From: Streptomyces sp. HUAS CB01
GTDB taxonomy: Bacteria; Actinomycetota; Actinomycetes; Streptomycetales; Streptomycetaceae
Assembly: GCF_030406905.1 (NCBI RefSeq)
Contig: NZ_CP129137.1
Coordinates: 6,293,501 to 6,357,500 of the forward strand
Direction of reading: 5' to 3'
DNA length: 64,000 nt
The notes beneath the pieces were generated by a model, which ran no database searches, had not been told where the DNA came from, and worked only from the letters and a program-made list of their open reading frames with translations. The stretch's first letter is position 1. Every line of letters starts with the position of its first letter. A program made the position numbers and the translations under genes. Positions 29,253 through 64,000 of this stretch are shown here, piece by piece.

Positions 29253-29828
29253 TCAGACCGCCACGCCGAAGTCGGACACGATGCCGGTGAGCCCCGATGC
29301 GTAACCCTGGCCCACGGCGCGGAACTTCCACTCGTCGCCGTTGCGGTACAGCTCGCCGAACACCATGGCGGTCTCGGTGGAGGCGTCCTCGGAGAGGTCG
29401 TAGCGCGCCAGTTCGGCCCCGCCGGACTGGTTGACGACGCGGATGAAGGCGTTGCGGACCTGGCCGAAGCTCTGGCTGCGCGCCTCGGCGTCGTGGATGG
29501 ACACGGGGAAGACGATCCTGGTGACGTCGGCGGGCACCGCGGCCAGGTCCACCTTGATCTGCTCGTCGTCGCCCTCGCCCTCGCCCGTGAGGTTGTCGCC
29601 GGTGTGCTGGACGGAGCCGTCGGGGCTGGTGAGGTTGTTGTAGAAGACGAAGTGCCCGTTCGAGGCGACCTTGCCCGAGTCGTCCAGGAGCAGCGCACTG
29701 GCGTCGAGGTCGAAGTCGGTGCCGGTGGTCGTGCGGACGTCCCAGCCGAGTCCGACCAGGACCGCGCTCAGTCCCGGCGCCTCCTTGCTCAGTGACACGT
29801 TGCCGCCCTTGGCGAGGCTCACGCCCAT
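29253..29828 (-). CDS. TerD-family stress protein
   Basis: A 191-residue TerD protein: [20 protein letters not shown] at the start, the calcium-binding [30 protein letters not shown] and [24 protein letters not shown]. TerD proteins bind Ca2+ and contribute to tellurite, phage and oxidative stress resistance and to differentiation in Streptomyces. GAGGAG lies seven bases before ATG 29828. It is divergent from blaI, and a BlaI-type operator lies in between, so it may be under BlaI control. Confidence 0.93.
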
Positions 29829-29897
29829 GCCGGTTCTCCTCATCTGTGCGACCGGGCGCAACCGCACCCGGTCGGCGGAACTGCGGACAGGGCAAAA

Positions 29898-29913
29898 TCT
29901 ACAGCAGTGTAGA
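29898..29913. promoter_or_regulatory. BlaI-type operator between terD and blaI
   Basis: TCTACA-gcag-TGTAGA, a perfect 6-bp inverted repeat with the TACA-N4-TGTA core of the BlaI/MecI family. It lies 70 bp before terD and 89 bp before blaI, in their shared promoter region. Similar boxes occur at 32908 and 62572. Confidence 0.75.
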
Positions 29914-30001
29914 AGTTGGCGGCCGGCCGACGCGCCGCGACTCGCCGTGAATCAGTACGATGAGGCCGCGAAGACGCGGACGACGCCGGAGGGAGACGGA
30001 G

Positions 30002-30412
30002 TTGGGCAACCGGGGAACGGCCGGCTCGCTCCCGGCGGGCGGCGGTCGCCGGCGCGGCCAGGGCGAGCTCGAGGCGCAGGTGCTCACCGTACTGAGGACC
30101 GCACCGGGCCCCGTCACGGCGGCCTGGGTGCAGGAGCGACTGCCCGGGGACCTCGCGTACACCACCGTCATGACCATCCTCTCCCGGCTGCAGGCCAAGA
30201 ACGCCGTCACCCGGCAGCGGGAGGGCCGGTCGTTCGCCTGGGAGGCCACCGCCGACCAGGCGGGTCTCGCCGCCCTGCGCATGCGCCGTGTCCTCGACGG
30301 CGAACGGGACCGGGAGGCGGTGCTCACCAGCTTCGTCACCTCCCTGTCCGCCGAGGACGAGCAGGTGCTGCGCGAGTTGCTCGGCCACACGGACGACGAT
30401 CCCGAGGAGTGA
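30002..30412 (+). CDS. BlaI/MecI-family transcriptional repressor
   Basis: A 136-residue winged-helix repressor: GELEAQVLTVLRTAPGPVTA, then WVQERLPGDLAYTTVMTIL, then SRLQAKNAVTRQREGRSFAW, then a dimerisation helix. Repressors of this family are inactivated by a membrane metalloprotease, which is the next gene. TTG 30002 is preferred because GGAGGGA lies seven bases upstream; ATG 29960 would add an Arg-rich start. Likely autoregulated through the box at 29898-29913. Confidence 0.88.
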   Translation: MGNRGTAGSLPAGGGRRRGQGELEAQVLTVLRTAPGPVTAAWVQERLPGDLAYTTVMTILSRLQAKNAVTRQREGRSFAWEATADQAGLAALRMRRVLDGERDREAVLTSFVTSLSAEDEQVLRELLGHTDDDPEE

Positions 30413-30416
30413 CCGG

Positions 30417-31355
30417 GTGGGCGTCTTCGTCTTCCTGCCGCTGGTGCTGCCCCTGACGGCGTGGCCGATCGCGCGCCTGGCCGAACAGCATCTGCATCCC
30501 CGTACGGCCACGCGTCTGCTGGCCGGGGTCAGCGCCTTGATGGCCCTGTGCAGCACCCTCTGCCTCGCGCTCATCATGGTGGTGGGAACAGCGCAACTGC
30601 CGGGCAACCCGCTGCCGGACACCTGGTCCGACCCCGAGGTGCGTGAGGCGGTTCCGTACGACGAGGTCGTCGGCAAGGCGGCGATCCCCGCACTGATCGC
30701 CGTGGCCGCGGCCGCGGTCCGTACGGTGTGGCGGCACCACCGCGTGCGGCGCCGGGCGGCACGCGCCCTGGAGGGACTGCCGGCGTCGCCCGTCGCGGTG
30801 CTGCCCGACGACTCGCCGTACGCCTACGCCCTGCCCGGCGGCCGGGGGGCGGCGCGGGGCCGGATCGTGGTGTCCACCGGCATGCTGGCCCGCCTCGACT
30901 CGCGTGAGCGCCGCGCCCTGTTCGCGCACGAGCGCGCGCATCTGGTCGCGGGGCATCACCGCCACCTCCTCGCGGCCCGGCTGGCGGCCCGCGCGAACCC
31001 GTTCCTGCGGCCCCTGCACACCGCCGTGGTCTACTGCGCGGAACGCTGGGCGGACGAGGAGGCCGCCGGGGCGATCGGCGACCGGCGCGTGATGGCCCGG
31101 GCGGTGGGCAAGGCGGCCCTGGTCACCGGGGGCAGCCCGTTCCCGGTGCCGGCCGGTTTCGCCTCGGGGCCGGTGCCACGGCGCGTCGCCGCTCTGCTGG
31201 GACCCGTTCCGCCCGCCCGGACCTGGCCGCCCGCCTACACCGCGGCGGGCGCGGCGCTCTGGACGGCCGCGGCGGGGGCCGCGGTGTCCGCGCTGTCGTC
31301 GGCGAACTCGGCCGTGGCGCTGTTCCTGGTGCTCAAGGCGGCGACTCCGCTGTAG
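30417..31355 (+). CDS. M56-family membrane zinc metalloprotease (BlaR1/MecR1-like)
   Basis: A 312-residue membrane peptidase starting at GTG 30417, four bases after blaI. TM helices lie near residues 3-20, 35-58, 88-105 and at the C-terminus (~265-310). The zinc site is HERAH in FAHERAHLVAGHH, with ERWADEEA supplying the third ligand. Unlike BlaR1 there is no beta-lactam-binding domain, so the signal is not obviously a beta-lactam. By family analogy it cleaves or inactivates the BlaI protein made from the same operon. Confidence 0.87.
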   Translation: MGVFVFLPLVLPLTAWPIARLAEQHLHPRTATRLLAGVSALMALCSTLCLALIMVVGTAQLPGNPLPDTWSDPEVREAVPYDEVVGKAAIPALIAVAAAAVRTVWRHHRVRRRAARALEGLPASPVAVLPDDSPYAYALPGGRGAARGRIVVSTGMLARLDSRERRALFAHERAHLVAGHHRHLLAARLAARANPFLRPLHTAVVYCAERWADEEAAGAIGDRRVMARAVGKAALVTGGSPFPVPAGFASGPVPRRVAALLGPVPPARTWPPAYTAAGAALWTAAAGAAVSALSSANSAVALFLVLKAATPL

Positions 31356-31766
31356 GAGGGCGGGCCGGCCGCCGCGCGACGCCGCGGGAACGCGGGGCCG
31401 GGCCGCGGTGGCCGTGGTACGGCACCCGGAGCCGGGGTGCACGGCCCGAGGCCGGCTTCGGGGGATCGTCATGCAAGGGCCTTCGGGGCAGTCGCCGTCC
31501 GGCCCTGAGCCGGCGTACGGCGTCGGCGCGTGGGCGCCGACGGCCGGCTGCGGCACTCGGACCCGGGGCGTACGGCCCGGAGGGCGCGCGGCGCGGCCGG
31601 GTGGGTCCCGCTAGTGGTGGTCCGGCACCCGGCACCCGGCGAGACCGTGTCCCGGGCGGGCGGCGCCGGGCGCCCGGCGTCCGCGCTCCCCGGCAGTCGT
31701 ACGGTGCCCGGCGGCCGGGCGTTCCGCGCCGGTGCGGTGCCCGGCCGTGGCCGCGCGTGACCCTCG
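31356..31766. other. 411-bp spacer with diverged repeats
   Basis: No convincing gene. A block like GGCAC-C/T-CGGA...GGGG...ACGGCCCG occurs near 31420 and 31552, and a related GGTCCGGCACCCGG at 31619. It could be debris of an old duplication. Confidence 0.45.
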
Positions 31767-32786
31767 TCAGCCCTCGTCGCCGTCGCTTCCGGCCCCGTCC
31801 TCCTCGAAGGCGTCGCCGATCTCGTCCACGATCTCCGCGCCGACGATGCCCGCGCCCACGCCGACGGCGAGACCGGCCGCACCGGCGGCCACGGCGGCGC
31901 CCGTACCGGGGCCGTGGTGGTGGTGCCCGCCGTGGTGGTCGCCGTGACCGCCCTCGTGGCCCGTCCCGTGGAACAGGTCGTGCGAGGCGTGGCCGCCGTG
32001 CGACCCGTGCGCGACGGGGGAGGAGCGGTGCTCCAGCAGATAGTGCAGCCAGGTGCCGACCCTGGCGTTCCAGTCCGCGTGGCCGGCCTCCTCGTGGGCG
32101 ACGGTGAAGCGGCCGACCGCGTCGTGGCCCCCCGCGAACAGCCCGCCGCGCCCGTCGGCCCGGAGGACCACCTCCATGCCGCCGGGGCCGGCGAGGAACG
32201 TGACCTCGACCTCGTCGACCGCACGGGCGTGCTGCGGGGGAGGGGTGAGCTCGATCTCCTGGTGGAAGGGCAGGGCGCCGCCGAGGTGCCCGTACACGAT
32301 GTCGGCGGACCGGAAGCCGAAGCCGAGCTGCCCGAACGCCTCCAGGACCGCTTCCTGCACCGGGAGCGGACGTACGGCCAGCAGGTCCAGATCGCCCTTG
32401 TCCCGGGCGCCGGCCACGCCCAGTTCGGTACGCACGCCCAGCACGACGCCGAGGGCCTGGCCGTGCAGTTCGGTCACCGGCGTCTCCCAGGGCACGGTCA
32501 TCGCGAAGGGGACGACGTGCCGTGCGCCCCGGTCGAGCCGGAAGCCGCCACCCACCGTGAACCGCTCGAAGGCGACGTCTCCCTCGTGCTCCCCGTGGTC
32601 ACCCTCCGCTTCCACACGGGCGACGAACTCCAGGGTGATGTGCTCGATGTCGTGGGCGGCGTCCCCGCCCTCGAGGCGGACCTCGCCGGTGAGGCTGCCG
32701 CCCGGCGCGACGGCTCCGGGGGTGAGGACCGTGTCCACAGCCGGGCCTCCGACGCCGAGCGAGCCGAACAGTCGTTTGAACACCAT
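31767..32786 (-). CDS. Spo0M (SpoOM)-family protein with His-rich tail
   Basis: A 339-residue arrestin-like beta-sandwich protein of the sporulation-control Spo0M family (MVFKRLFGSLGVGGPAVDTV; LTPGAVAPGGSLTGEVRLEG; HYLLEHRS near the end of the fold). After residue ~275 comes a region with over a dozen His (HGSHGGHASHDLFHGTGHE and HGDHHGGHHHHGPG), then an Ala/Gly hydrophobic stretch and an acidic end. The His segment suggests metal binding. ATG 32786 is used with AAGGAG 11 bases upstream. A BlaI-type box lies 122 bp upstream. Confidence 0.87.
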   Translation of the reverse strand: MVFKRLFGSLGVGGPAVDTVLTPGAVAPGGSLTGEVRLEGGDAAHDIEHITLEFVARVEAEGDHGEHEGDVAFERFTVGGGFRLDRGARHVVPFAMTVPWETPVTELHGQALGVVLGVRTELGVAGARDKGDLDLLAVRPLPVQEAVLEAFGQLGFGFRSADIVYGHLGGALPFHQEIELTPPPQHARAVDEVEVTFLAGPGGMEVVLRADGRGGLFAGGHDAVGRFTVAHEEAGHADWNARVGTWLHYLLEHRSSPVAHGSHGGHASHDLFHGTGHEGGHGDHHGGHHHHGPGTGAAVAAGAAGLAVGVGAGIVGAEIVDEIGDAFEEDGAGSDGDEG

Positions 32787-33129
32787 CGTGGCGTTCACTC
32801 CTTCATGTACGCGTGGGTTCTGCGGGAAGCGGCGGCGCCGCGCGGACGGACCGGGGCCGGGAGCATCGGTGTCCGTCCCGGGAACATCCCGTACCGCCCT
32901 GGCGTTATCTACACGCATGTAGAAGCATAGGAGGGGAGCGCGCGCCGCGGACCGTGCACACGGGCGCCGGTGACGGAACGGCCGAAAACGCCTCACGGAT
33001 GGCCAGTACAAAGGGAATGGCCAGGCGCTTTACCCGTCCTTTACCATGGTGCGGCGGACACTGTCCCGACCATGACCCCAGCAGGGCCGACCCCGGCCCA
33101 TCGAGCAGCGAAGGAGCAGCAGACCCGCA
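32787..33129. other. Divergent promoter region spo0M / CNNM operon
   Basis: Holds the BlaI-type box (32908-32923), a direct repeat GGCCAG 18 bp apart (33001 and 33019), and an AT-richer stretch (33025-33045, CTTTACCCGTCCTTTACC) that may be a promoter. No gene other than the small leader frame at 33130 was seen. Confidence 0.5.
32908..32923. promoter_or_regulatory. BlaI-type operator upstream of spo0M
   Basis: TCTACA-cgca-TGTAGA, a perfect 6-bp inverted repeat, identical in both arms (and in the following AG) to the box at 29898. It lies 122 bp before the spo0M start and 293 bp from the CNNM gene, so spo0M is the likelier target. Confidence 0.72.
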
Positions 33130-33204
33130 ATGGGTGAACCTCCCAGTCCCAGCCGTGCCCCGTCCCGCCCGCCGTTCTCCGAGGGCAGGGAGGTGGCACG
33201 GTGA
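33130..33204 (+). CDS. Possible 24-residue leader peptide before the CNNM operon
   Basis: ATG 33130 to TGA 33202. The stop overlaps the GTG start of the next gene (GTGA), and GAAGGAG lies 13 bases before the ATG. The peptide (starting MGEPPSPSRAPSRPPF) is Pro/Ser/Arg-rich and matches no family. Overlap suggests coupling, but the length makes chance possible. Confidence 0.3.
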   Translation: MGEPPSPSRAPSRPPFSEGREVAR

Positions 33205-34529
33205 CCGAAGTGCTCCTGCTGCTCGTGGCCCTGGCGCTCACGCTGGCCTGCGCCGTGTTCGTCGCGGCCGAGTTCTCCCTCACCACCGTCGAGCGCGGTG
33301 AGCTGGAGCGTGCGGCCCGGTCCGGCGACCGGGGCGCCGAGAGCGCCCTCAAGGCCGTGAAGCGCCTCACCCTCCAGCTGTCCGGTGCCCAGCTGGGCAT
33401 CACCGTGACCTCACTGGTGATCGGCATGCTCGCCGAGCCGTCCGTCTCGGCACTGCTGCGCGGCCCCCTCGAGGCGGCCGGACTGCCCCAGGGCGCCGTG
33501 CCGACCGTGTCGACGCTCCTCGGCGTCGCGATCTCGACCGTCGTCCTGATGGTGGTCGGCGAGCTCGTCCCCAAGAACTGGGCGATCTCGCGCCCGCTCG
33601 CCGTGGCCAGGGTCGTGGCCGGGCCGCAGCGCGGTTTCACCGCCGCCTTCGGACCGCTGATCCACCACCTGAACAACACGGCGAACCGGCTGGTGCGCCG
33701 CTTCGGGCTGGAGCCCGCCGAGGAGCTGGCGTCCGCCCGTACCCCCGAGGAACTGATCGCGCTCGTGCGGCACTCGGCACGCGAAGGCGCCATCGAGGCC
33801 GACTCGGCCGAGCTGTTCGTCCGCACCCTGCACCTGGGCGAGCTCACCGCGGAGAACGTCATGACGCCCCGCGTCGACGTCCGCGCCCTCGAAGTGCACG
33901 CCACGGCGGCCGACGCGGCGAACCTCACCCTCGCCACCGGTCTCTCCCGCTTCCCGGTCTACCGGGACAGCCTCGACGAGGTCATCGGCACCGTGCACAT
34001 CCGCGACGTCCTCGCCCTGGACGAGGACAAGCGTCCCCTGACGCCGATAGCCGACCTGGCGACCGCGCCCCTGCTGGTGCCGCACTCGCTGCCCGTGGAC
34101 AAGCTCCTCGGCCGGCTGCGCAGGGCCCGCACCATGGCCGTGATCATCGACGAGTACGGGGGCACCGCGGGTGTCGCCACCGTCGAGGACATCGTCGAGG
34201 AGGTCGTCGGCGAGGTCCGCGACGAGCACGACCCCCACGAGACGCCCGACCTGGCGCCCGCCGAGCCGGCGCTCGACGGCCGCCCGGTGTGGGACGCCGA
34301 CGGCAGCGTCCGCGTCGACCAGCTCCGGGAGATCGGCTTCGCGGCGCCCGACGGCCCCTACGAGACCCTGGCCGGACTGATCGCCGCCCGGCTGGAGCGC
34401 ATCCCGACCACCGCCGACCGTCTCGACGTCGACGGCTGGCAGCTGGCCGTGCTCCACACCGAGCACCACCGCGCCGACCGCGTCCGCGTCACCGCCCCCG
34501 CGGCCGAGAGCGTGGAGGAGACCCGATGA
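33201..34529 (+). CDS. CNNM/CorC-type membrane protein (HlyC/CorC family), full length
   Basis: A 442-residue transporter-like protein. Order: CNNM transmembrane domain (~1-150, with AAEFSLTTVERGELE, GAQLGITVTSLVIGMLAEP and VVGELVPKNWAISRP), a CBS pair (~200-335, with VMTPRVDVRAL and VIIDEYGGTAGVATVEDIVEEVVGE) and a C-terminal CorC_HlyC domain (~355-435). The family takes part in Mg2+/Co2+ efflux. GTG 33201 has GGGAGG upstream. Coupled by ATGA to a shorter paralogue. Confidence 0.9.
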   Translation: MTEVLLLLVALALTLACAVFVAAEFSLTTVERGELERAARSGDRGAESALKAVKRLTLQLSGAQLGITVTSLVIGMLAEPSVSALLRGPLEAAGLPQGAVPTVSTLLGVAISTVVLMVVGELVPKNWAISRPLAVARVVAGPQRGFTAAFGPLIHHLNNTANRLVRRFGLEPAEELASARTPEELIALVRHSAREGAIEADSAELFVRTLHLGELTAENVMTPRVDVRALEVHATAADAANLTLATGLSRFPVYRDSLDEVIGTVHIRDVLALDEDKRPLTPIADLATAPLLVPHSLPVDKLLGRLRRARTMAVIIDEYGGTAGVATVEDIVEEVVGEVRDEHDPHETPDLAPAEPALDGRPVWDADGSVRVDQLREIGFAAPDGPYETLAGLIAARLERIPTTADRLDVDGWQLAVLHTEHHRADRVRVTAPAAESVEETR

Positions 34530-35551
34530 CCACCCTGCAACTGCTGATCGGTGCGTTCACGCTCGTCACCAACGCCTTCTTCGTCGGCGCCGAGTTCGCC
34601 CTGATCTCCGTGCGCCGCAGCCAGATCGAGCCCGCCGCGGTCAAGGGCAACCGCCGTGCCCGGACCACCCTCTGGGGCATCGAGCACCTGTCCGCGATGA
34701 TGGCCACGGCCCAGCTCGGCATCACCGTGTCGTCGCTGGTGCTCGGCGCCGTCGCCGAACCGGCCATCGCCCATCTGCTGGAGCCTCCGTTCCACGCCAT
34801 CGGCGTGCCCGAGGCGCTGATCCACCCGATCGCGTTCGTCATCGCGCTGACCCTGGCGACGTATCTCCACATGCTCGTCGGCGAGATGGTCCCCAAGAAC
34901 ATCGCCCTCGCCGCCCCGGCGCCGACGGCGCTCCTCCTCGGCCCCCCGCTGGTGGCGCTGACCCGGGCGCTGCGGCCGGTGGTCTTCGGCATCAACGCCT
35001 TCGCCAACACCCTGCTCCGGCTCCTGCGGGTCGAGCCGAAGGACGAGGTGGCCTCGGTCTTCACCGACGACGAGCTGGCCCGTCTGGTCAAGGACTCCAG
35101 CGAGGCCGGGCTCCTCGAACCGGAGGACGGCGAGCGACTCCAGGACGCGCTGGAACTGGGCACCCGGCCGGTCGGCGAGGTGATGGTGCCGCTCAACAAG
35201 ATGCTCACCGTCGACGCCGGCATCACCCCCCAGGGCCTGGAACGGGCGTCCGTCGCCCACCGGTTCTCCCGCCTCCCGGTGGTCGCGGAGGGCGGCGCGA
35301 TCCTGGGCTACCTGCACATCAAGGACGCCCTGGGCGTCGCGGAGCGCACGAAGCCCTTCCCGCGCACAGCACTTCACCCGATCATCAAGGTGGCCATCGA
35401 CACCCCCCTCGACGACACCATGACCGCCATGCGGGGCGCCGGTACCCACCTCGCCGCGGTCACCGGCACCAAGGGCACGGTCATCGGCTTCGTCACCATG
35501 GAGGACGTGCTGGAGGAACTGGTGGGCCCGGCACCCGACGCGGTCGGCTGA
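34526..35551 (+). CDS. CNNM/CBS membrane protein lacking the CorC domain
   Basis: A 341-residue paralogue of the upstream protein: CNNM domain (AEFALISVRRSQIEPAAV; TAQLGITVSSLVLGAVAEP; LVGEMVPKNIALAAP) and a CBS pair (VMVPLNKMLTVD; VIGFVTMEDVLEELVG), ending right after the CBS domains. The long/short pair in one operon is common in actinobacteria and suggests a heteromeric complex, perhaps for Mg2+ or Co2+. The start is fixed by the ATGA overlap. Confidence 0.9.
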   Translation: MTTLQLLIGAFTLVTNAFFVGAEFALISVRRSQIEPAAVKGNRRARTTLWGIEHLSAMMATAQLGITVSSLVLGAVAEPAIAHLLEPPFHAIGVPEALIHPIAFVIALTLATYLHMLVGEMVPKNIALAAPAPTALLLGPPLVALTRALRPVVFGINAFANTLLRLLRVEPKDEVASVFTDDELARLVKDSSEAGLLEPEDGERLQDALELGTRPVGEVMVPLNKMLTVDAGITPQGLERASVAHRFSRLPVVAEGGAILGYLHIKDALGVAERTKPFPRTALHPIIKVAIDTPLDDTMTAMRGAGTHLAAVTGTKGTVIGFVTMEDVLEELVGPAPDAVG

Positions 35552-35554
35552 CCC

Positions 35555-35618
35555 GTCGCCCCGTCGCCCCGTCGCCCCGTCGCCCCGTCGCCCCGTCGCC
35601 CCGTCGCCCCGTCGCCCC
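35555..35618. repeat. Eight perfect tandem copies of GTCGCCCC
   Basis: An 8-bp unit repeated eight times without a mismatch, beginning three bases after the stop of the CNNM operon. Perfect identity suggests recent growth by slippage. It is non-coding. Confidence 0.95.
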
Positions 35619-35632
35619 GCCGACGCGCTGTC

Positions 35633-35711
35633 CCCGCGAACGCAACGACCGCGGGGCGCATCGGAGCCGCCGCACCGCCGTGAGGCGGGGCGGCGGTTTC
35701 GCGTTCGCGGG
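35633..35711. terminator. Nested hairpin after the CNNM operon
   Basis: Outer arms CCCGCGAACGC (35633-35643) and GCGTTCGCGGG (35701-35711) pair perfectly. Inside, a 13-base stem (35667-35679 with 35684-35696, one mismatch) closes on the loop GTGA and is followed by TTT. This is probably the operon terminator. Confidence 0.65.
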
Positions 35712-35822
35712 CACGAGATGCCGAGGGGCTGCGCCCGGACACGGGAGGAACGAGCCAGGACACGGGGACGGGGCACGCCCCGCGCGGACCGGAGGGCTCG
35801 GCGACAGTGCCCCGGTCTGCCG

Positions 35823-36326
35823 TCAGCGCGCGGCCGCCCCACGCCCGGCGGCACGGCCGAGGACGAGACGACCCACGGCCGCGACGGCCGTGGTACCGGT
35901 CACGACCCCCATGGCCGCGACGATCTGAACCGGCTGCTGCGCCCACGCAGCGGTCGCGCAGAGCACGGCCAGGAACGGCCCGAGGAGAAAGAGAACGCTG
36001 CTTCCGCCGGGTGCGAGGACGCGCACGGCCGTGTGGCGCACCAGCGGTACGGTGCCCGCGAGCAGGGCGCCGAGTGCGGCCAGGAGCAGCGGAGGGCGTG
36101 CCGAGGCGGCGATCAGCGCCGACACGCACAGCGTTGCAGCGAGCGCGTATCCGGCGCTCATCGCCCATCGGAAGGCGGGGGATGTGGCGACACCTCCCGG
36201 GGCGGGGCGCAGCCCGAGGACGATCCCGGACGTCCGAAGACCGCGGGCCAGATCGGCCACCAGGTCCTTGACGTCGCCCCCCGCCACGTCGAACGCGGTG
36301 ACGACCAGCGCGAGGGTTCCGTGCAA
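35823..36326 (-). CDS. Hypothetical four-helix membrane protein
   Basis: A 167-residue frame with four hydrophobic helices (about residues 55-75, 78-95, 108-128, 132-155) after a soluble N-terminal stretch (FDVAGGDVKDLVADLARGLR). I do not recognise the family. The only available start at full length is TTG 36326 without a good ribosome site; GTG 36286 would shorten it by about 14 residues. Codon use looks genuine. Confidence 0.5.
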   Translation of the reverse strand: MHGTLALVVTAFDVAGGDVKDLVADLARGLRTSGIVLGLRPAPGGVATSPAFRWAMSAGYALAATLCVSALIAASARPPLLLAALGALLAGTVPLVRHTAVRVLAPGGSSVLFLLGPFLAVLCATAAWAQQPVQIVAAMGVVTGTTAVAAVGRLVLGRAAGRGAAAR

Positions 36327-36583
36327 GGACGGGCAGAAGAAGGATCCGCACAGCTTCGCCCCGGCACGCCCGTGCTGCCGGCCGACGGTACCGCCGAGCC
36401 GATGCCTCCGGCAGCAGCTCCGGAACCATCGCCGTCCCTTCCGGCCGTTCGCTTCCTACCCCCGCCCACTGTGCCGCGTCCCCTCCGCGGCCCGATCCCG
36501 GGGCGGCAAGGACGTGGCGGAGGCCGACCGAGCCCGCAACAGGCGCGAACGGCGGGAGTGGGGCGAGAAGCGGCCGCTCCCCG

Positions 36584-39252: not shown

Positions 39253-39439
39253 GGCGCGACACCGGAGCCGCCGGGGGAGGCCGCCGCTGCTCCCCTGTGG
39301 CGGCGGCGGGGGAGTGCGTGGGTCCGGGCCGGCGTGGAGGAACACTCTCCTGCGGAGGGGGGCGGGGGAAACCGCCCGGGCCGGCGCGTGGCGGGCGGCA
39401 CGCGGGCACGCCCCTGCGCGGGGGCACACGGAAACGCGC

Positions 39440-40866: not shown

Positions 40867-40868
40867 CG

Positions 40869-55434: not shown

Positions 55435-56105
55435 GGTGCACCACCCGCCTCGCCCAGCACCCGGCGCATGTCGTGCACCGCCTGCCAGGTGCCCCGCCAG
55501 GTTCCGGTCACCTTCGACTTGCCGGTCCGGGGCAGGTAGGGCACGTCCTCCTCCCGCACCCGCCAGCCGGCATCAGCGGCGCGCACCACCATCTGCAGCG
55601 GATAGCCGCTGCGACGGTCCGTCAGACCCAGCTCCAGCAGCCCCTCGCGGCGTGCCGCCCGGAGCGGACCCAGATCGTGGAGCCGCAGTCCGGTTCGCCG
55701 GTGCAGCATCCAGGAAAGCGCGAGGTTCCCCGCGCGAGCGTGCGCCGGGAACGCCCCCCGCCCGGCGGGCCGTCGCCGGCCCAGCACCAGGTCGGCCTCG
55801 CCCTCCGCCACGGCACGGACGAAGGGGACGAGGAGTCCGGGATCCAGGGAGGCGTCACAGTCGCAGAAGCACACGATGTCCGCCTCCGCGGCCAGCAGCC
55901 CCGCGTGGCAGGCGGCCCCGAATCCGCGCCGATCCTCATGTACGACGGTCGCCCCCAACTCCCGGGCGATGACGGCGGATCCGTCGGTGGAGCCGTTGTC
56001 GACGACGATGGCACGCCATCCGGCGGGGACGCGTTCGAGGACCCAGGGCAGTGCCCCGGCCTCGTTCAGACAGGGAAGTACGACGTCAGTGGTCACGACT
56101 GTCAC
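55431..56105 (-). CDS. Family 2 glycosyltransferase (dolichol-phosphate mannosyltransferase-like)
   Basis: A 224-residue soluble GT2 enzyme: DVVLPCLNEAGALPWVLERV, AIVVDNGSTDGSAVIA, and a D-x-D motif FCDCDASLDPGLL. RTGKSKVTGTWRGTW near the end is typical of polyprenyl-phosphate sugar transferases. It has no membrane helices. It probably makes a lipid-linked sugar that a GT-C enzyme such as the GT87 at 50955 could use. GTG 56105 has no clear ribosome site; GTG 56096 is possible. Confidence 0.87.
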   Translation of the reverse strand: MTVVTTDVVLPCLNEAGALPWVLERVPAGWRAIVVDNGSTDGSAVIARELGATVVHEDRRGFGAACHAGLLAAEADIVCFCDCDASLDPGLLVPFVRAVAEGEADLVLGRRRPAGRGAFPAHARAGNLALSWMLHRRTGLRLHDLGPLRAARREGLLELGLTDRRSGYPLQMVVRAADAGWRVREEDVPYLPRTGKSKVTGTWRGTWQAVHDMRRVLGEAGGAP

Positions 56106-56159
56106 CGTACGAATCGGCGGCGAACAAAGCGGACATCGACCCCTTACGAATCGCGGACG

Positions 56160-57227
56160 TCATCCTCCGTGAGCGGCGCCCGGTGTGCGCTGGGCCGCAC
56201 GGGCGAACTCGGCCACGCCCTCACGGAATCCGGTGCGCGGCGACCAGCCCAGGTCGTGTCGCAGCCTCCGTGAGTCCGCCGTGATGTGCCGGACGTCCCC
56301 GAGCCGGAACTCACCGGTGACGACAGGGGCGGGACCGCCGCACGCGGCCGCGAGGGCCGCGGCCATCTCGCCGACCGTGTGGGGCTCCCCGCTGCCCGTG
56401 TTGTACGCGGTGAGGGCACCCGCCTCTCGTTCCGCGACCGCCTCCAGCGCCACGACGTTCGCCTCGGCGACGTCCCGGACGTGGACGAAGTCGCGCCGCT
56501 GGGCACCGTCCTCGAACACGCGGGGTGCCTCGCCCCGGGCCAGCGCCGACCGGAAGAAGGAGGCCACTCCCGCGTACGGCGTGTCCCGGGGCATGCCCGG
56601 GCCGTAGACGTTGTGGTAGCGGAGCGACACGGCCCGTCCGTCCGTCGCACGCGCCCAGGCCGCCGTGAGGTGCTCCTGCGCCAGCTTCGTCACGGCGTAC
56701 ACGTTCCGCGGGTCGCACGGGGCATCCTCGTCGACCAGGCCCGGGGTCAGTTCCGCGCCGCACCGCGGGCACGGCGGCTCGAACCGCCCCGCCGCAAGAT
56801 CGGCCGCCGACCTCGGACCGGGACGCACCGCCCCGTGGTCGGGGCATGCGTAACGCCCCTCCCCGTACACGACCATCGAGCCGGCGAGCACGACCTGCCG
56901 TACCCGCGCCTCCGCCGCCGCGGCGAGGAGCGTCGCCGTCCCCAGGTCGTTGCAGGCCACGTAGTCGGGCGCATCGGCGAAGTCCTTGCCGAGCCCCACC
57001 ATCGCCGCCTGGTGACACACCGCGTCCACGCCCCGCAGGACCGTGGCGAGCACCGCCGGGTCGCGGACGTCGCCATGGACGAAGCAGGTCTCCGGCAGGG
57101 CCGGAGGCCCGTGGTGCGCGGTGGGCAACAAGGCGTCCAGGACCACCGGTTCGTGGCCACGCCCGATGAGTGCCGAGACGATGTGTGCGCCGATGAAGCC
57201 GGCGCCTCCCGTGACGAGTACGCGCAT
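56160..57227 (-). CDS. NAD-dependent sugar-nucleotide epimerase/dehydratase with zinc-like Cys motif
   Basis: A 355-residue extended SDR enzyme: VLVTGGAGFIGAHIVSALIG (NAD site), GSMVVYGEGRY, and active-site YAVTKLAQE (YxxxK). Inserted at about residues 128-158 are CPDHG and CPRCG, which may bind Zn, an unusual feature. First gene of the leftward operon with the GT2, DUF2064 and methyltransferase genes. It likely supplies the nucleotide sugar for the pathway. Confidence 0.88.
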   Translation of the reverse strand: MRVLVTGGAGFIGAHIVSALIGRGHEPVVLDALLPTAHHGPPALPETCFVHGDVRDPAVLATVLRGVDAVCHQAAMVGLGKDFADAPDYVACNDLGTATLLAAAAEARVRQVVLAGSMVVYGEGRYACPDHGAVRPGPRSAADLAAGRFEPPCPRCGAELTPGLVDEDAPCDPRNVYAVTKLAQEHLTAAWARATDGRAVSLRYHNVYGPGMPRDTPYAGVASFFRSALARGEAPRVFEDGAQRRDFVHVRDVAEANVVALEAVAEREAGALTAYNTGSGEPHTVGEMAAALAAACGGPAPVVTGEFRLGDVRHITADSRRLRHDLGWSPRTGFREGVAEFARAAQRTPGAAHGG

Positions 57228-57428
57228 GCCGCCGACGCTATGGGCCGCCTCCGCCGCCCGCCTGCTCCCACGCCAGGACGTAAGACTTCCGTCACCACGG
57301 CCCCCGCCGGCCCGGCTCGCGCGGGGACGCAGCCCGAGGGCCGACCGGCCTTCGTCGCCGATGTGTTGAGGTGCGCCTCAGGTGGGCGACACGGCAATGT
57401 ATGGCATGTGCATCCCATTCCTCAGCAG

Positions 57429-59360
57429 ATGCGGCGCCCGGCCGGCCACATGCTCGTCAGCGGTGACGACGCCCTCGCCCATCGGCTCGCCGGCGAACTC
57501 CGCGACGTCTACCGGCAGCAGGTGACGCTGCTCGTGCCGCCCAGCCGCTCGTCCAGGACCCCTCCCGCGGACGCGAACGCTCCCTCGGGCGGCCGGGCCC
57601 TCGCCCTGCTCGGCAGGGTGTCGGCAGGCATCACCCGTACGGGAGGGAGCCGCGCGGCCGTGAACGGCGGGGGCGGTCGTCCGGACGAGATGACCGTCGT
57701 CGAGACCGACGACCTCGACGACCTCGCGCTCCGGGAAGCCGGGGTGGAGACCGCGCAGGCACTCGCCCTGGTGCACGAGGACGACGAGACCAACATCCGT
57801 GCCGCACTCACCGCCCGCCGGCTGAACCCCCGCCTGCGTCTGGTGATCCGCCTCTACAACCGCAAGCTCGGCCAGCACCTGGAGGAACTTCTCGACCAGG
57901 CAGCCGTCCTCGCCGTCCCCGGGATGGCCGCGGACGACATCGACTCCTCCACCACCGTCCTGTCCGACGCCGACACCGCCGCTCCCGCGCTCGCCGCCAC
58001 GGCCGTCACCGGTACCAGCAAGATCGTCCAGGCCGACGGGCTGCTCCTGCGCGCGGCCGAGAGGCCCCCGCCGGGGCGCGGTGAGACGGGGGATCCGGGA
58101 CTGTGCACACTGGCGCTGCTGTCCTCCACGAGCAGCGACCCCGCAGGCGTGGAGGGAGCCGACGGCAGCGGATCCGACGGACCGCTCCTGCTGCCGGACG
58201 ACGGGGCCGTCGCCGCGGCGTCCGGCCGGGGCACGATCGTGCTCGAAGCCGTCACCGGACCGGAAGCCGTGCCCGGGAGCCGGCTGAGCGGTCCCGCCCT
58301 GCCCTTCCGGGAACTCCTCTCGCGCCGAGTGCGCTGGTCGTTCGCCGGTGTCGGCGCGGCCGTCACCGCCCTGGCCGTCGCGTCCTGGCTCACCACGGGC
58401 GACCATCCCCTCCACGCCGCCTACGTCACGCTCCTCGACCTCTTCTCCATCAACGACCCCGCGGTCGGCGAGGACACCGACCGACAGGTCCTCCAGCTGC
58501 TCACCGGGCTCGTGGGCCTGCTCCTGCTGCCCCTGCTCGTCGCCGCGGTGCTGGAAGCGCTCAGCTCCTTCCGCTCGGCGACCGCCCTGCGCCGGCCGCC
58601 GAGAGGGCTGAACGGGCACGTCGTCCTGCTGGGTCTGGGCAAGATCGGCACCCGTGTCCTCGCCCGGTTGCGTGAACTCGGCACGCCCGTCGTCTGTGTC
58701 GAGAACGATCCCGAAGCGCGCGGAGTCGCGCTCGCCCGGAGACTGCGCGTTCCCGTGATCATCGGGGACGTCACGCAGGAGGGTGTGCTCGAGGCGGCCA
58801 GAACCCACCGGGCCCACGCCCTGCTCGCCCTCACGAGCTCCGACACCACCAATCTCGAGGCGGCGCTGTACGCCCGCTCGATCGCCCCCGATCTCCGGGT
58901 GGCGCTGCGGCTGTACGACGACGACTTCGCCACCGCCGTCTACCGGACGCTGCGCGCCGCGCACCCCGGGGCGCTCACCCGCAGCAGGAGCGTGACGTCG
59001 CTCTCCGCGCCCGCCTTCGCCGGTGCCATGATGGGCCGTCAGGTGCTCGGGGCGATCTCCGTCGAGCGCCGGGTCCTGCTCTTCGCCGCGCTCGAGGTGG
59101 CCGACCTGCCGCAGCTGGAGGGCCGCACCATCGCCGAAGCGGTCCGCCCGGGCATGTGGCGGGTGCTGGCCCTGGACATGAAGGCACCGGGCGACCGGCG
59201 TCCGGATCTCTCCGCGGCCCCGCCCGACGACGGGACGGAACACACGACCGATCTGCTCTTCGACCTCCACCCGGGGCATCTGCTGCGTCCCGGCGACCGG
59301 GTGGTCGTCGCCGCCACGCGCCGTGGCCTGGCGGAACTCCTCGGGCACCGGACCCGGTAG
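57429..59360 (+). CDS. RCK/TrkA-N - two-helix - RCK/TrkA-N membrane protein
   Basis: A 643-residue protein: a first NAD-binding RCK-like half (HMLVSGDDALAHRLAGEL; ~8-190), an Ala/Gly/Ser-rich stretch, two hydrophobic helices (~305-323 and ~355-380), then a second RCK half (GHVVLLGLGKIGTRVLARL; VIIGDVTQEGVLEAART; ~400-560) and a C-terminal domain. The order resembles Kch/MthK K+ channels, but the loop between the helices (LLDLFSINDPA) lacks a TVGYG filter. ATG 57429 is used; GTG 57408 is an alternative. It may be a channel relic, a regulator of one, or an atypical transporter. Confidence 0.78.
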   Translation: MRRPAGHMLVSGDDALAHRLAGELRDVYRQQVTLLVPPSRSSRTPPADANAPSGGRALALLGRVSAGITRTGGSRAAVNGGGGRPDEMTVVETDDLDDLALREAGVETAQALALVHEDDETNIRAALTARRLNPRLRLVIRLYNRKLGQHLEELLDQAAVLAVPGMAADDIDSSTTVLSDADTAAPALAATAVTGTSKIVQADGLLLRAAERPPPGRGETGDPGLCTLALLSSTSSDPAGVEGADGSGSDGPLLLPDDGAVAAASGRGTIVLEAVTGPEAVPGSRLSGPALPFRELLSRRVRWSFAGVGAAVTALAVASWLTTGDHPLHAAYVTLLDLFSINDPAVGEDTDRQVLQLLTGLVGLLLLPLLVAAVLEALSSFRSATALRRPPRGLNGHVVLLGLGKIGTRVLARLRELGTPVVCVENDPEARGVALARRLRVPVIIGDVTQEGVLEAARTHRAHALLALTSSDTTNLEAALYARSIAPDLRVALRLYDDDFATAVYRTLRAAHPGALTRSRSVTSLSAPAFAGAMMGRQVLGAISVERRVLLFAALEVADLPQLEGRTIAEAVRPGMWRVLALDMKAPGDRRPDLSAAPPDDGTEHTTDLLFDLHPGHLLRPGDRVVVAATRRGLAELLGHRTR

Positions 59361-59746
59361 TCCGCGTTCCGGGCAGTCGGCGCTGCCGTCGTGCGCTTTG
59401 CTCGTGGGCCTTGCGGGGGTCCGCGTCGTGCCGGTGGGCCCTGGAGTGGTTCGCGTTCCGCTCGTGGGTCCCTGGACGATCCGCGCGGCCGTGGGGCAGG
59501 TCGAGCCGGTGGGGCGGCTATGTGGACGGGCTGGCCCCCGGCTGCGGCGGGGTCCGTAGGCGCGCGTACGGCGCGTCTGTGGTGGACTCGTCCTGTCGGC
59601 AGGGGCACCGCCCGCCCCGGCCGCCCGATCCGCCGCAGGCAGTACCGGAACCGACGGACAGGGGGGATGGTGAGGCGGACGGGATGCGGCGGCCGCCGGT
59701 GGGACGGTGCCGCCCCCGCCGTCCTCGAGCGCATCGGAGGGACACC
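59361..59746. other. 386-bp spacer
   Basis: No convincing gene. It holds the promoter for the small membrane gene at 59747; no strong repeat or hairpin was seen. Confidence 0.45.
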
Positions 59747-60016
59747 GTGAACGGCTCCGCCTCGCTTCTGACCGTCGCCCTCGTGGCCGCCGCACTCGTG
59801 ATCAGGACGGCCGTCGCGGAGCTGCGCAACCCCGGAAGCGCCCGTGCGCGGTGGGCCGTCGCCTCCCGCACCCGGGCCGTCACCGCGGGGGCGGTGACGG
59901 CGGCCGTGCTCGGAGTCGTCGGCTGGCGGTACGCGGGCCACGGCGCGGTGGCCTGGGCCGTTCTCGCGGGAGCGCTGGTCGTGGTCGTCGTGGACCGCCG
60001 CCCGCCCCCGGAGTGA
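59747..60016 (+). CDS. Small membrane protein (89 residues)
   Basis: GTG 59747 has GGAGG at good spacing. Three hydrophobic stretches (LLTVALVAAALVIRTAV; AVTAGAVTAAVLGVVGW; AVAWAVLAGALVVVVV) separated by an Arg-rich loop. No family recognised. It ends 313 bp before the opposing flotillin gene, and a terminator-like hairpin follows. Confidence 0.6.
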   Translation: MNGSASLLTVALVAAALVIRTAVAELRNPGSARARWAVASRTRAVTAGAVTAAVLGVVGWRYAGHGAVAWAVLAGALVVVVVDRRPPPE

Positions 60017-60329
60017 ACGCCCGCTGCCGCACCACCCGAGGACCGCAACGGCGCTGCCCGGCGGAGGCGCGCGCCACCCAGCCACACGACGCGCCCTCCA
60101 CGAGGTGCGCGCTCAGGGGCGGTCGGGTCCACGGCGGGCCGGCCCCCCCGGCCTGCGCGGGGGCGGGGCCGGCCCGCGCCGGGTCGGGTTCTCCGCCCGC
60201 GTGTTCCTTCCCGGTCGCGTCGGGCGGGCTTTCCCGGAGGCTGCCGGGCCTGCCTTCCCGGCGGGCGCCGGGTGGTCCCGGAGCCGGCCGGGCGGGCCGT
60301 CGCCCCGGTCGACCGCCCGACGCCCCCCG
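60017..60329. other. 313-bp spacer after convergent genes
   Basis: Apart from the hairpin at 60134-60177 it is a very GC-rich stretch with no visible gene. Confidence 0.5.
60134..60177. terminator. Perfect 13-bp stem before the flotillin gene end
   Basis: GCGGGCCGGCCCC (60134-60146) pairs fully with GGGGCCGGCCCGC (60165-60177) around an 18-nt loop. It likely ends the small membrane gene and may end the flotillin gene, whose stop is 153 bp away. Confidence 0.6.
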
Positions 60330-61754
60330 TCAGCCGGTGATCTCGACCGCGCCGTTCTCCGCGGACTTGCCGCGCTCCCGCTTCGGGCCCTTCTGCGTGA
60401 TGCCCCGCAGCAGCTCGGCGAGGTCGACCCCCGTGGTGGAACCCAGGAGTTCCAGACCCTGGGCGACGTTGTCCGCCACGGCGCGCGGCAGCTTGCCGGC
60501 TCCGTCGGTGGAGATGACGGTCATCTTGTCGATCGCGCCGAGCGGTTCGGCCGCCTTGCCGACCACCTGAGGCAGCACCTCGACGAGCATCTGCAGCACC
60601 GCGGCGTCGCCGTACCGGTCGAAGGCGTCGGCCTTCTTCTGCATGGCCTCCGCCTCGGCGGATCCCCTCGCGGCGATGGCGGCTGCCTCCGCCTCGCCCT
60701 CGATACGGACCGCGTCGGCGAGCGCCGCGCGGTGCGCCTTCTCGCCCTCACCGGTCAGGCGGGCCCGCTGCGCATCGGCCTCGGCCTGCTTCACCAGGGC
60801 GACACGACGCGCCTCGGCCTCCTGCTCGGCCTGGTAGCGGGCCGCGTCGGCCGGCTTGCGGACCTGGGTGTCGAGCTCCCTGTCCGTCAGCGCCGCCCGG
60901 CGCTCCGCGACCTTCTCCTGCTGGCTGAGGATCTCCTGCTGCCGGTCGGCCTCGGCGAGCGGTCCCGCCGCCGCGGCCTTCGCGGCGGCCTCGTCCGTCT
61001 CCGCCTTGATCTCGGCCTGCTTGAGCGCGAACGTCCGCTGCGCGACGGCGATCTCCTCCTCGGCCTTCAGCCGCGCCTGCTCCGAGGCCCGCCGGGCCAC
61101 GGCCTCGGCGATGTCGGCCTCCTGCTTGGCCCGCGCCGCTTCCGGGCGCCCGAGGTCCTCGAGGTAGGAACCCTCGGTGGTGATGTCCTGGATCTGGAAC
61201 GCGTCCAGCACCAGGCCCTGGCCCGAGAGACTGGCCTCGGCCTCCTCCGCGACCTGGCCGGCGAAGGCGGCCCGGTCCCGGATGATGTCCTCCACCGACA
61301 TCCGGCCGACGATGGAGCGCAGCGCTCCGGAGAGCACTTCCTGGGTGAAGCCGACGATGCCGTTCTGCTGGACGAGGAAGCGCTGGGCGGCGGCCCGGAT
61401 GGAGTCCTCGGACCCGCCCACCTTGACGATCGCCACGCCCTCCAGATTGGCCTTGATGCCGCGCAGCGTGACCGCGCCGCGCACGGCGACGGGGATGTGC
61501 CTGCTGGAGAGGTCGAGGGTGAACCTCTGCTGCACGAACGGGACGACGAAGACGCCGCCGCCGACGACGACCTTCTGGCCGCTGTTGTCGGTGAAGACCC
61601 GTCCGGTCTCGGGATCGGTGGACTTCTTGCCGCGCCGGCCCGTGATGATGAACGCCTCACTGGGGCCGGCGACCTTGTACCGCGTGACCACGACGAGGGC
61701 CAGCAGTACGAGGAGTACGGCGACTCCCACCACGGCGATGACGACTGGATTCAT
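60330..61754 (-). CDS. Flotillin-family (SPFH) membrane-microdomain protein
   Basis: A 474-residue protein: N-terminal TM helix (~4-26), SPFH/PHB domain (~28-185; RYKVAGPSEAFIITGRRGKK, VVGGGVFVVPFVQQRF, GSEDSIRAAAQRFL), then a long Ala/Glu-rich coiled coil (~185-380) and a C-terminal region (PQVVGKAAEPLGAIDKMTVI). Flotillins scaffold membrane microdomains and help assemble signalling and cell-wall complexes. ATG 61754 has GGGGGGAG five bases upstream. The NfeD-like gene precedes it on the same strand. Confidence 0.92.
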   Translation of the reverse strand: MNPVVIAVVGVAVLLVLLALVVVTRYKVAGPSEAFIITGRRGKKSTDPETGRVFTDNSGQKVVVGGGVFVVPFVQQRFTLDLSSRHIPVAVRGAVTLRGIKANLEGVAIVKVGGSEDSIRAAAQRFLVQQNGIVGFTQEVLSGALRSIVGRMSVEDIIRDRAAFAGQVAEEAEASLSGQGLVLDAFQIQDITTEGSYLEDLGRPEAARAKQEADIAEAVARRASEQARLKAEEEIAVAQRTFALKQAEIKAETDEAAAKAAAAGPLAEADRQQEILSQQEKVAERRAALTDRELDTQVRKPADAARYQAEQEAEARRVALVKQAEADAQRARLTGEGEKAHRAALADAVRIEGEAEAAAIAARGSAEAEAMQKKADAFDRYGDAAVLQMLVEVLPQVVGKAAEPLGAIDKMTVISTDGAGKLPRAVADNVAQGLELLGSTTGVDLAELLRGITQKGPKRERGKSAENGAVEITG

Positions 61755-61823
61755 GGTGCTCCCCCCTGCCTCCCTGGGGCGGCAGATCACGTGGGTCGAA
61801 TGGACGGGCGCCGGGGTGGATCG

Positions 61824-62333
61824 TCAGCGCTCGACGGGGCGGACGAGGACGGACGTGGCCGACAGGGCGGCCTCCACCCACACCTCCGCGCCCCGCCGGA
61901 CAGGCGTGGCGGACCTGGCGGCGTACTTCACGGGCTGCCCGGCCACCAGCAGCAGCACCTCGCCGTAGCCGTCGGCCGGGATGGCGGTCACCACGGATCC
62001 TCCGGTGCCGAGGAGGTCCTCCCCCCGGGGAGCGGCCGCGGTCCGGTCCGCCATGAGTGCGCTGCTGAGCCGCCAGGTCAGCCTGGCCGCGAGCAGGCCG
62101 GCGAGCACTCCCGCCACCGTGGCGGCGGTCGTACCGAGACCCGTCGTGCCCAGCACGATCGCGCCGGTGAAGCCGAGCATCGAGACGAACCCGGCGATCG
62201 CAGGAAGCGACAGCCAGCCGTCGAACATGCCGCCCAGCGCCCCGTCGAGGACACCTTCCAGCACCCCGTCGAGGACGAGCGAGAGCGCCAGGAGGACGAT
62301 CCCCGCGATGCCGAGGCCGAGAAACAAACCCAT
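61824..62333 (-). CDS. NfeD-like partner of flotillin
   Basis: A 169-residue protein with three hydrophobic helices (~2-22, 45-68, 72-92) and a small beta-barrel-like C-terminus (~105-165; GTGGSVVTAIPADGYGEVLLLV and ARSATPVRRGAEVWVEAAL), the OB-fold of NfeD short forms. NfeD and flotillin genes are paired across bacteria. ATG 62333 follows GGGGGGTG. 69 bp separate it from the flotillin gene. Confidence 0.78.
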   Translation of the reverse strand: MGLFLGLGIAGIVLLALSLVLDGVLEGVLDGALGGMFDGWLSLPAIAGFVSMLGFTGAIVLGTTGLGTTAATVAGVLAGLLAARLTWRLSSALMADRTAAAPRGEDLLGTGGSVVTAIPADGYGEVLLLVAGQPVKYAARSATPVRRGAEVWVEAALSATSVLVRPVER

Positions 62334-62672
62334 ACCAGTACACCCCCCTGACCACCGGTCACCCCGCCGGCCGCATGGTCTCACGCACAACGAGCCGATC
62401 TCATTGCCGTGTTACGGCAGTCTTGACGACTTCTTGATGCCGTCCTCTCCGCGGCGCCGGGTCCCATCGGTGAGGCTCCCCCTCCGGGCGGCGGAGCGGG
62501 CGGCCGGCAGTCCGCCGAACCCGCACTCCACACGCCTTCCCCTGCCCGGGTGTCGCCGCGGCCCGATGCCTTCTACACGGAAGTAGAGTGCTGGGACCTT
62601 GCCGTGCCGCCGAGAGCGCGTACCGACGACGGGCGGGCGCCGACCCGTCCGGGGCAGTGGAGGGACGTCGAC
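62334..62672. other. Divergent spacer before the LCP gene
   Basis: Between the leftward NfeD-like gene and the rightward LCP gene. AT-richer parts lie at 62385-62440 (TTGCCGTGTTACGG...TTGACGACTTCTTGATG). Near 62572-62587 stands an imperfect BlaI-type box. No gene is seen. Confidence 0.5.
62572..62587. promoter_or_regulatory. Imperfect BlaI-type operator before the LCP gene
   Basis: TCTACA-cgga-AGTAGA, matching the boxes at 29898 and 32908 at all but one arm position (A for T). It lies 86 bp before the LCP start. It may place this wall enzyme under BlaI. Confidence 0.5.
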
Positions 62673-64000
62673 GTGAGTGATGCGCCCGGGCAGCACCCGG
62701 CGAAGACCCGAACGACCCCGACGGCGGCTCCGGTCCGCGGTCCCTCCCGCCCTCGTACCCGGCGCGGCCGGAGGGTGTCGTGGGCCGTGTCGGCGCTGGC
62801 CGCGCTGCTCGCCGTCACCGCGGCCGCCGGTGTCTGGGTCTACCGCGACCTGCAGGGCAACATCCACTCCGCGGACGTGGACAACAAGATCGGCGACGAC
62901 CGGCCGCCCAACATGAGTCCCGGCTCCAAGAACATCCTCGTGGTGGGCTCCGACTCCCGGGCGGGAGCCAACGCCCAGTACGGCAGGGGCCTGTCCACCA
63001 TGCAGTCCGACACGCTGCTGGTCCTTCACCTCGCCGCGAACCGGAAATGGGCGACCGTGGTGTCCTTCCCCCGGGACTCATGGGTGAAGGTGCCGGCGTG
63101 CGACCGCGGTGACGGCAGCACCTCCGGACCCCACCACGCCAAGATCAACGAGGCGTTCGCCATCGGGGGCGCCGGGGGCGAGGTCGCCGGAGCCGCCGCC
63201 TGCGCGATCAAGACGGTCGAGCAGAACACGGGACTGCGCATCGACCACTTCATGTCGGTCGACTTCCAGGGGTTCAAGGGCATGGTCAACGCCCTCGACG
63301 GGATGGAGGTCTGTCCCACGGCCGCGATCCGCGACAGGAAGGCCCGCCTCGACATCCCCGCCGGCTGTCAGACCGTGAGGGACGAGGAGGCCCTGGGCTA
63401 CGTCCGTGCGCGGTACGGCGTCGGCGACGGCTCCGACCTCGGCCGCATCGGCCGGCAGCAGGAGTTCATGCGCGCCCTCGCCGACCGGGCCCAGGAGAAG
63501 CTGACCAGCCCCGGCGCGATGTACGGGCTGCTGGAGTCCGCCACGAAGTCGCTCACCACGGACAAGGGACTCGCGGGAATCCAGCCCCTGTACGGTCTCG
63601 CCTCCCGGCTCAAGGCGATCCCGCCCGGCCGGCTGACGTTCGTGACCGTGCCCAACTACCCCCGCAGCATGGACGTGCCGTCCGACACGGCGAACGTCGT
63701 CTGGCAGTACCCGGAGGCCGCCGACCTGTTCACGGCGCTCGCCCGGGACGAGGAAGTCCGCAAGGAGGCGTTCGCGGACGCCCGGGCGAACCCCCTGTAC
63801 GCGAGCGCCGTCCGGGTACGGGTGCTCAACGGCACCGGCACTCCGGGCCTCGCCGGCGAGGTCGCCCGGTCGCTGCGCCGGGCCGGATTCACCATCACCG
63901 GAACCGGCAACGCTCCCTCGCCGTCGGCCCGGACGTCGGTCACCCACCCGGCCGGACTCGGGCAGCAGGCCCGCGCGCTGGCCTCCCGGCTGCCCGGGGC
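62673..64000 (+). CDS. LytR-CpsA-Psr (LCP) family protein (3' end outside the window)
   Basis: At least 442 residues, cut by the window edge. N-terminal cytoplasmic basic region (~1-40), one TM helix (~40-60), then the LCP domain (~85-280): NILVVGSDSRAG, SFPRDSWVKVP, INEAFAIGG, VDFQGFKGMVNALDGM, and VRARYGVGDGSDLGRIGRQQ with conserved Arg and Asp. A LytR_C domain begins at about residue 385 (VRVRVLNGTGTPGLAGEVAR). LCP enzymes transfer teichoic acid or arabinogalactan-like polymers from lipid carriers to peptidoglycan. GTG 62673 has GGAGG nine bases upstream. Confidence 0.92.
   Translation, partial: MSDAPGQHPAKTRTTPTAAPVRGPSRPRTRRGRRVSWAVSALAALLAVTAAAGVWVYRDLQGNIHSADVDNKIGDDRPPNMSPGSKNILVVGSDSRAGANAQYGRGLSTMQSDTLLVLHLAANRKWATVVSFPRDSWVKVPACDRGDGSTSGPHHAKINEAFAIGGAGGEVAGAAACAIKTVEQNTGLRIDHFMSVDFQGFKGMVNALDGMEVCPTAAIRDRKARLDIPAGCQTVRDEEALGYVRARYGVGDGSDLGRIGRQQEFMRALADRAQEKLTSPGAMYGLLESATKSLTTDKGLAGIQPLYGLASRLKAIPPGRLTFVTVPNYPRSMDVPSDTANVVWQYPEAADLFTALARDEEVRKEAFADARANPLYASAVRVRVLNGTGTPGLAGEVARSLRRAGFTITGTGNAPSPSARTSVTHPAGLGQQARALASRLPG

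Follow-up and report, generated by a model that had tools for sequence, protein, structure and literature searches.

The BlaI-type repressors described to date include BlaI and MecI of Staphylococcus and Bacillus, which are encoded beside membrane zinc proteases (BlaR1 and MecR1) and recognize operators built from TACA/TGTA half-sites (PMC7253601). BlaR1 combines a protease with a beta-lactam sensor (PMC7593790). The related copper repressors CopY and CopR are metal-responsive, use TACAnnTGTA and control copper export genes (PMC7253601), while BlaI_0696 and BlaI_1845 of Clostridium thermocellum regulate themselves and very small regulons through few, very strict sites, namely GTCTAT repeats five nucleotides apart (PMC8457756). 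Here we describe a BlaI-type repressor, its adjacent membrane protease and a putative envelope-stress regulon in a 64,000-nucleotide (nt) stretch of Streptomyces sp. HUAS CB01 (contig NZ_CP129137.1, 6,293,501-6,357,500), hereafter the window, whose internal positions are used throughout. The pair resembles BlaI-BlaR1 and MecI-MecR1 in gene arrangement and half-sites, but the protease has no extracellular beta-lactam sensor domain, the half-sites are separated by four bases rather than the two of TACAnnTGTA, and the targets are envelope and Ter-type genes, with no beta-lactamase or penicillin-binding protein gene among those named. It shares with the C. thermocellum repressors a small number of strict sites, including one at its own promoter, but not their operator or regulon size. 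The repressor scores 84.3 bits against the Penicillinase_R profile (cut-off 22.6), as against 25.9 bits for the CopY profile (cut-off 121.95), and its sole sequence match in the PDB is 2g9w (E 2e-8), with which it has the stretch DLAYTTVM in common. We take 2g9w to be Rv1846c of Mycobacterium tuberculosis, which together with its partner Rv1845c would then be a further comparable system; a genome-wide Rv1846c regulon was reportedly published by Sala et al. in 2009. The targets of Rv1846c (ATP synthase and others) appear to differ from the Streptomyces set. No prior description of the present regulon was found among the titles listed by the literature searches, in which subscription journals were only partly covered; one seeming match to BlaI (PMC12175524) proved to be the name of an author.

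The window contains three copies of the dyad TCTACA-N4-TGTAGA (Table 1), located as in a preliminary description of this DNA: one between terD and the blaI-protease pair, one before spo0M and one, carrying a single mismatch, before a gene for an LCP-family glycopolymer transferase. The distances from operator to gene start are 69 nt for terD (29828, minus strand), 88 nt for the likely TTG start of blaI (30002), 121 nt for spo0M (32786, minus strand) and 85 nt for the LCP gene (62673). At up to two mismatches, three boxes were found in the window where 0.14 were expected, and none of 100 shuffled sequences gave three. The genome-wide scan suggested in the preliminary description returned, at up to one mismatch, just these three boxes in 8.1 Mb, all within 33 kb, while the control, the same pattern reversed, returned none. 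Since the 31 sites with two mismatches lie near the 24 of the control, looser matches in the home genome are uninformative, and we rejected them as additional targets.

We consider it probable that these boxes mark an envelope-stress regulon controlled by BlaI and the protease. The repressor would bind the dyad TCTAC(A/G)-N4-TGTAGA where it overlaps the core promoters of the blaI operon and of envelope-stress genes, thereby repressing them. In this strain the targets would be terD, spo0M with a divergent pair of CNNM membrane protein genes, and the LCP gene, joined in relatives by terB and at times by tatA-like, PAP2 or acyltransferase genes. Upon disturbance of the membrane or wall, the co-encoded BlaR1-like protease may cleave or inactivate BlaI, whereby the whole target set would be derepressed together. 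Comparison between genomes supports the sites, their rarity, conservation and fixed spacing, their placement at predicted promoters, their linkage to BlaI and the identity of the targets; from these we infer binding and repression by BlaI, its cleavage and the inducing signal.

Because selection by the pattern itself would be circular, we assessed the target set in 80 named loci that had been retrieved with BlaI as the sole query (the best 80 of 298, with some species represented more than once). Genes were called with a simple purpose-made program and labelled by blastp against a few named proteins, and a gene was scored when a box with at most one mismatch lay within 350 nt upstream, genes starting less than 350 nt from a locus edge being dropped. 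These loci hold 89 exact boxes with a spacer of four, spread over 56 of the 80; no boxes with spacers of 0-3 or 5-10, no control matches and no boxes inside called genes were found in them. An upstream box was present at 34/40 TerD, 32/34 TerB and 12/13 Spo0M genes and at the first gene of the CNNM pair in 12 of 15 cases (the second in 1 of 15), compared with 23 of 780 among all other genes. Across many species, then, a single type of site recurs upstream of a constant group of genes, well above the level for other genes, and not, as the preliminary description had named as a possible refutation, upstream of genes no more often than expected. The box also preceded 46 of 78 blaI genes, 3 of 15 LCP genes and 1 of 15 TatA-like genes, and none of 74 protease genes. 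In a larger pool of 154 sources, which includes loci fetched by the pattern and from which sites with less than 60 nt of flank were dropped, all 168 distinct exact boxes have a spacer of four; 162 have a gene start within 350 nt and none lies within a called gene. Called genes make up 82% of the DNA in this pool. Forty one-mismatch sites likewise all lie outside called genes, with A to G at position 6 and T to A at position 11 as the commonest changes. By Pfam, recurrent targets beyond those of the window encode TerB, TatA, acyltransferase, PAP2 and ion channel proteins, and two recurrent small box-linked proteins gave no Pfam match. The proposal that BlaI boxes link terD, spo0M and the LCP gene has good support from comparison, but its extent was drawn too narrowly, missing both the CNNM pair and TerB, a core target in relatives. 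The home genome has two TerB relatives, the better of which (at 7799537) is 62% identical to a box-bearing TerB and has no site under four mismatches in its locus.

The boxes also appear to be placed at promoters. Of 55 boxes that face terD, 48 have a right half-site that runs on into the -10-like hexamer TAGATT. The left half-site has no counterpart to the additional TT, which therefore looks like part of a promoter and not of the operator. At terB, a TANNNT word begins 5 nt before the box in 24 of 46 sites. No TTGAC-type word was enriched at a fixed distance from the box as a -35 element. As read from the sequence, this overlap with apparent -10 elements fits steric repression.

Across 150 Streptomyces genomes, the exact box occurs in 250 copies in 96 genomes, while the control occurs in four copies in four genomes. 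With cut-offs that were set after the E-values had been seen (close BlaI, E at most 1e-37; no BlaI, nothing better than E 1e-20), 85 of the 98 close-BlaI genomes had a box (233 boxes), as did 10 of the 21 genomes whose BlaI was intermediate (16 boxes) and 1 of the 31 no-BlaI genomes (one box). The corresponding Fisher value (p ~5e-18, close versus no-BlaI class) is not a true probability because the genomes are related. In a class-wide sample outside the genus, 11 of 181 genomes have an exact box, compared with three for the control, and two of these 11 loci, both from other families, lie next to a BlaI-protease pair of 40-45% identity, while the remainder do not. It is quite unlikely, in our estimation, that another conserved regulator or an alternative-sigma promoter owns the boxes and that blaI is merely one of its targets. 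Such a regulator would account for the 11 Streptomyces genomes that have the box without a close BlaI, our tests of the BlaI-box link draw only on co-occurrence and position, and other regulators have been proposed in the genus, such as the aconitase AcnA for tellurium-resistance proteins in S. viridochromogenes (PMC3912134) and the sigma factor SAVERM_3117 in S. avermitilis (PMC8780764). Against this, the strictness and constant spacing of the dyad suit a dimeric repressor, BlaI, MecI and CopY are reported to use the same half-sites (PMC7253601), and the box, which genomes without BlaI almost never have, adjoins BlaI-protease pairs even at the low identities seen in other families.

Several aspects of this distribution weigh against control of the boxes by BlaI. 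Besides the 11 genomes just mentioned and the kinship that affects all p-values of the association, 13 of the 98 close-BlaI genomes lack an exact box, and at 32 of 80 BlaI promoters a box with one mismatch or fewer is absent within 420 nt. In a tree of 121 BlaI sequences, blaI promoters with a box tend to group together, yet at least 14 gains or losses of this box are needed, so that the target sites look more constant than blaI's own box. A clade of 16 BlaI genes, supported in the tree, lacks a promoter box and mostly lies in other surroundings; a search of this clade for an alternative dyad found none common to more than 5 of the 16, and that one reads as upstream coding sequence. Box-less blaI genes are not explained by an altered recognition helix of BlaI, since the core LAYTTV occurs in both groups. 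Two further cases concern single targets: genomes G010, G014, G037 and G056 have a close BlaI and boxes but none at spo0M, and G032 keeps a one-mismatch site at its LCP gene yet has no close BlaI.

The partner of BlaI stands beside the first box, as initially described, and, in line with that description, no C-terminal beta-lactam sensor domain was found in it. It is only 312 amino acids (aa) long with four hydrophobic segments and no further Pfam domain, and in a second-look structural comparison of its model the nearest fold was BlaR1, aligned to BlaR1 residues 3-291 only. Its HExxH motif and downstream Glu (H171, E172, H175 and E209) are invariant in 42 sequences, as for the ligands of a zinc protease. 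Counting against a BlaR1-type assignment, Foldseek alone gave no match under E 0.39, and by sequence the protein matches M48/HtpX (Pfam E 1.2e-14; 3cqb, E 3.5e-8). The protein may resemble the membrane-protease part of BlaR1 minus its sensor, but sequence profiles favour M48/HtpX. The protease would presumably detect an envelope signal and then lift repression by BlaI. It seems unlikely to us that the regulon is real but that BlaI is inactivated by a ligand, a metal or a redox change, with the protease having another substrate; the lack of a recognized sensor domain, the M48/HtpX match and the metal response of CopY within the BlaI family (PMC7253601) would all agree with this, but blaI and the protease gene are separated by only 4 nt, most of the 80 BlaI-selected loci have a protease homolog no more than 5 kb from BlaI, and the best second-look fold match remains BlaR1.

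Conservation of the second operator was followed in 30 Spo0M loci from a search of 61 genomes, in which at least four further long-form matches had no locus. The box is present at 16 of 24 long-form orthologs and at none of six short paralogs. Among the eight long-form genes without it, those of G047 and G051 are in genomes without a close BlaI and those of G020 and G033 in genomes without any exact box. This operator faces both spo0M and the divergent CNNM pair, and boxes also accompany the pair in further species. Neither terD nor a box was found at blaI in Streptomyces sp. I6 and S. pacificus, but the spo0M/CNNM box is kept beside a BlaI of 90-94% identity.

Taken alone, the LCP site is the weakest of the operators, lying between the LCP gene and the oppositely oriented genes for a 169-aa protein and a flotillin. 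We compared 30 LCP loci from a search of 41 genomes, comprising nine orthologs (at least 62% identity; a tenth 62% match, in G028, had no locus and was not counted) and 21 paralogs (40-47%, one with just 38 nt available upstream). Eight of the nine orthologs are preceded within 600 nt by a site with two mismatches or fewer, in three cases an exact box within 116 nt, and none of the 21 paralogs is; the ortholog without a site is that of G013, which has no close BlaI. There is a small chance that BlaI does not use operator 3, leaving the LCP gene outside the regulon in this strain with only operators 1 and 2 at work. Its single mismatch speaks for this, as does the closest relative, S. wuyuanensis, where the gene order is flotillin, 169-aa gene, terB, exact box, two-mismatch box, LCP, so that the counterpart of operator 3 has two mismatches and the exact box lies farther upstream at terB, which the window lacks at this place. 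The contrast between orthologs and paralogs argues for a BlaI site, as does the nature of the mismatch, which is one of the two commonest changes among one-mismatch sites. Both neighbors were rejected as direct targets, the box preceding 0/6 flotillin genes and 0/5 genes for the 169-aa protein in the BlaI-selected loci; an NfeD-like label for the latter was also discarded, as it came from position alone and no family matched.

The target set partly overlaps the sigma-W regulon of Bacillus subtilis, where spo0M and the floT operon belong to the core and yce genes are secondary, the switch being controlled by proteolysis (PMC3498285). Both systems include spo0M and Ter genes, but the Bacillus system uses an extracytoplasmic function (ECF) sigma factor with an anti-sigma factor rather than a repressor and has flotillin at its core, so that the two agree in Spo0M and Ter proteins but, to this point, not in flotillin. 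The Ter assignment presumes that yceC-H of B. subtilis are Ter family genes. We tentatively suggest, as an idea somewhat short of an even chance, that a sensor-less BlaI-protease pair replaces the ECF sigma factor, running an envelope-defence regulon parallel to part of sigma-W (Spo0M and Ter) plus LCP and CNNM, in which the membrane part of the protease would sense bilayer or wall damage and free all targets at once. Ter proteins and Spo0M are widespread and, to our knowledge, their control is poorly known; a strict operator that can be predicted from genomes offers a testable regulator for both. The role of BlaI, known from antibiotic resistance, would widen to general envelope defence, and the question arises what a BlaR1-like protease without a sensor domain detects. 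As the genus makes many wall-active compounds, the response could be one of self-protection or interference.

Table 1. Positions of the operators and genes discussed (window coordinates), and members of the BlaI clade without a promoter box (other loci)
Feature	Position	Strand	Description
terD	29253-29828	-	191 aa; Pfam TerD 1.5e-87
Operator 1	29898-29913		exact TCTACA-N4-TGTAGA; common to terD and blaI; right half towards terD runs on as TAGATT (-10-like)
blaI-type repressor	30002-30412	+	136 aa; likely TTG start, ATG at 29960 possible; Pfam Penicillinase_R 1e-23
BlaR1/M56-like membrane metalloprotease without sensor domain	30417-31355	+	312 aa
spo0M, long form	31767-32786	-	339 aa; Pfam Spo0M 1e-68
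Operator 2	32908-32923		exact; between spo0M and CNNM pair; kept in nearest relatives
CNNM/CBS/CorC_HlyC membrane protein 1	33201-34529	+	faced by operator 2 at 277 nt; Pfam CNNM 5.3e-36
CNNM/CBS membrane protein 2	34526-35551	+	overlaps first CNNM gene; Pfam CNNM 2.4e-42
Flotillin	60330-61754	-	neighbor only; Pfam Band_7 3.5e-26, Flot 8.2e-11
169-aa protein beside flotillin	61824-62333	-	possible but unsupported operator 3 target; no family match
Operator 3	62572-62587		one mismatch (T to A, position 11); before LCP gene; runs into TAGAGT (-10-like, from sequence)
LCP-family glycopolymer transferase	62673-63998	+	LytR_cpsA_psr and LytR_C, Pfam 7e-43 and 2.6e-15; frame continues past window end
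BlaI clade of 16 without box	L227-L230, L232, L235-L237, L166, L168, L175, L179, L183, L190, L195, L198

In addition to these features, a DUF5133 gene (28862-29158; Pfam 2.7e-22) lies immediately downstream of terD on the opposite strand. The second BlaI-type gene of the home genome (locus L093, 5030-5467; contig C1, ~4430705) is flanked by a small gene and an Lsr2-like gene and lies near a ClpC-like gene, the latter two names being our presumption from the translations; no protease partner was called in that stretch, and the genome has only these two Penicillinase_R genes. A protein of ~73 aa without a Pfam match (L072, 9540-9761, and relatives) recurs behind boxes, at eight boxes in the pool and at 3/3 of its genes in the BlaI-selected loci. 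Exact boxes adjoined by BlaI-protease pairs of 40-46% identity are found in loci L320, L322 and L327, with a PAP2 phosphatase gene nearby in L322, and BlaI paralogs may engage in cross-talk. Finally, S. wuyuanensis has a second blaI-protease pair amid three exact boxes (L222, 1-18000; genome G034, contig C15), with further Spo0M, TerB, TerD, TatA-like and CNNM genes nearby, as if the regulon had been duplicated.

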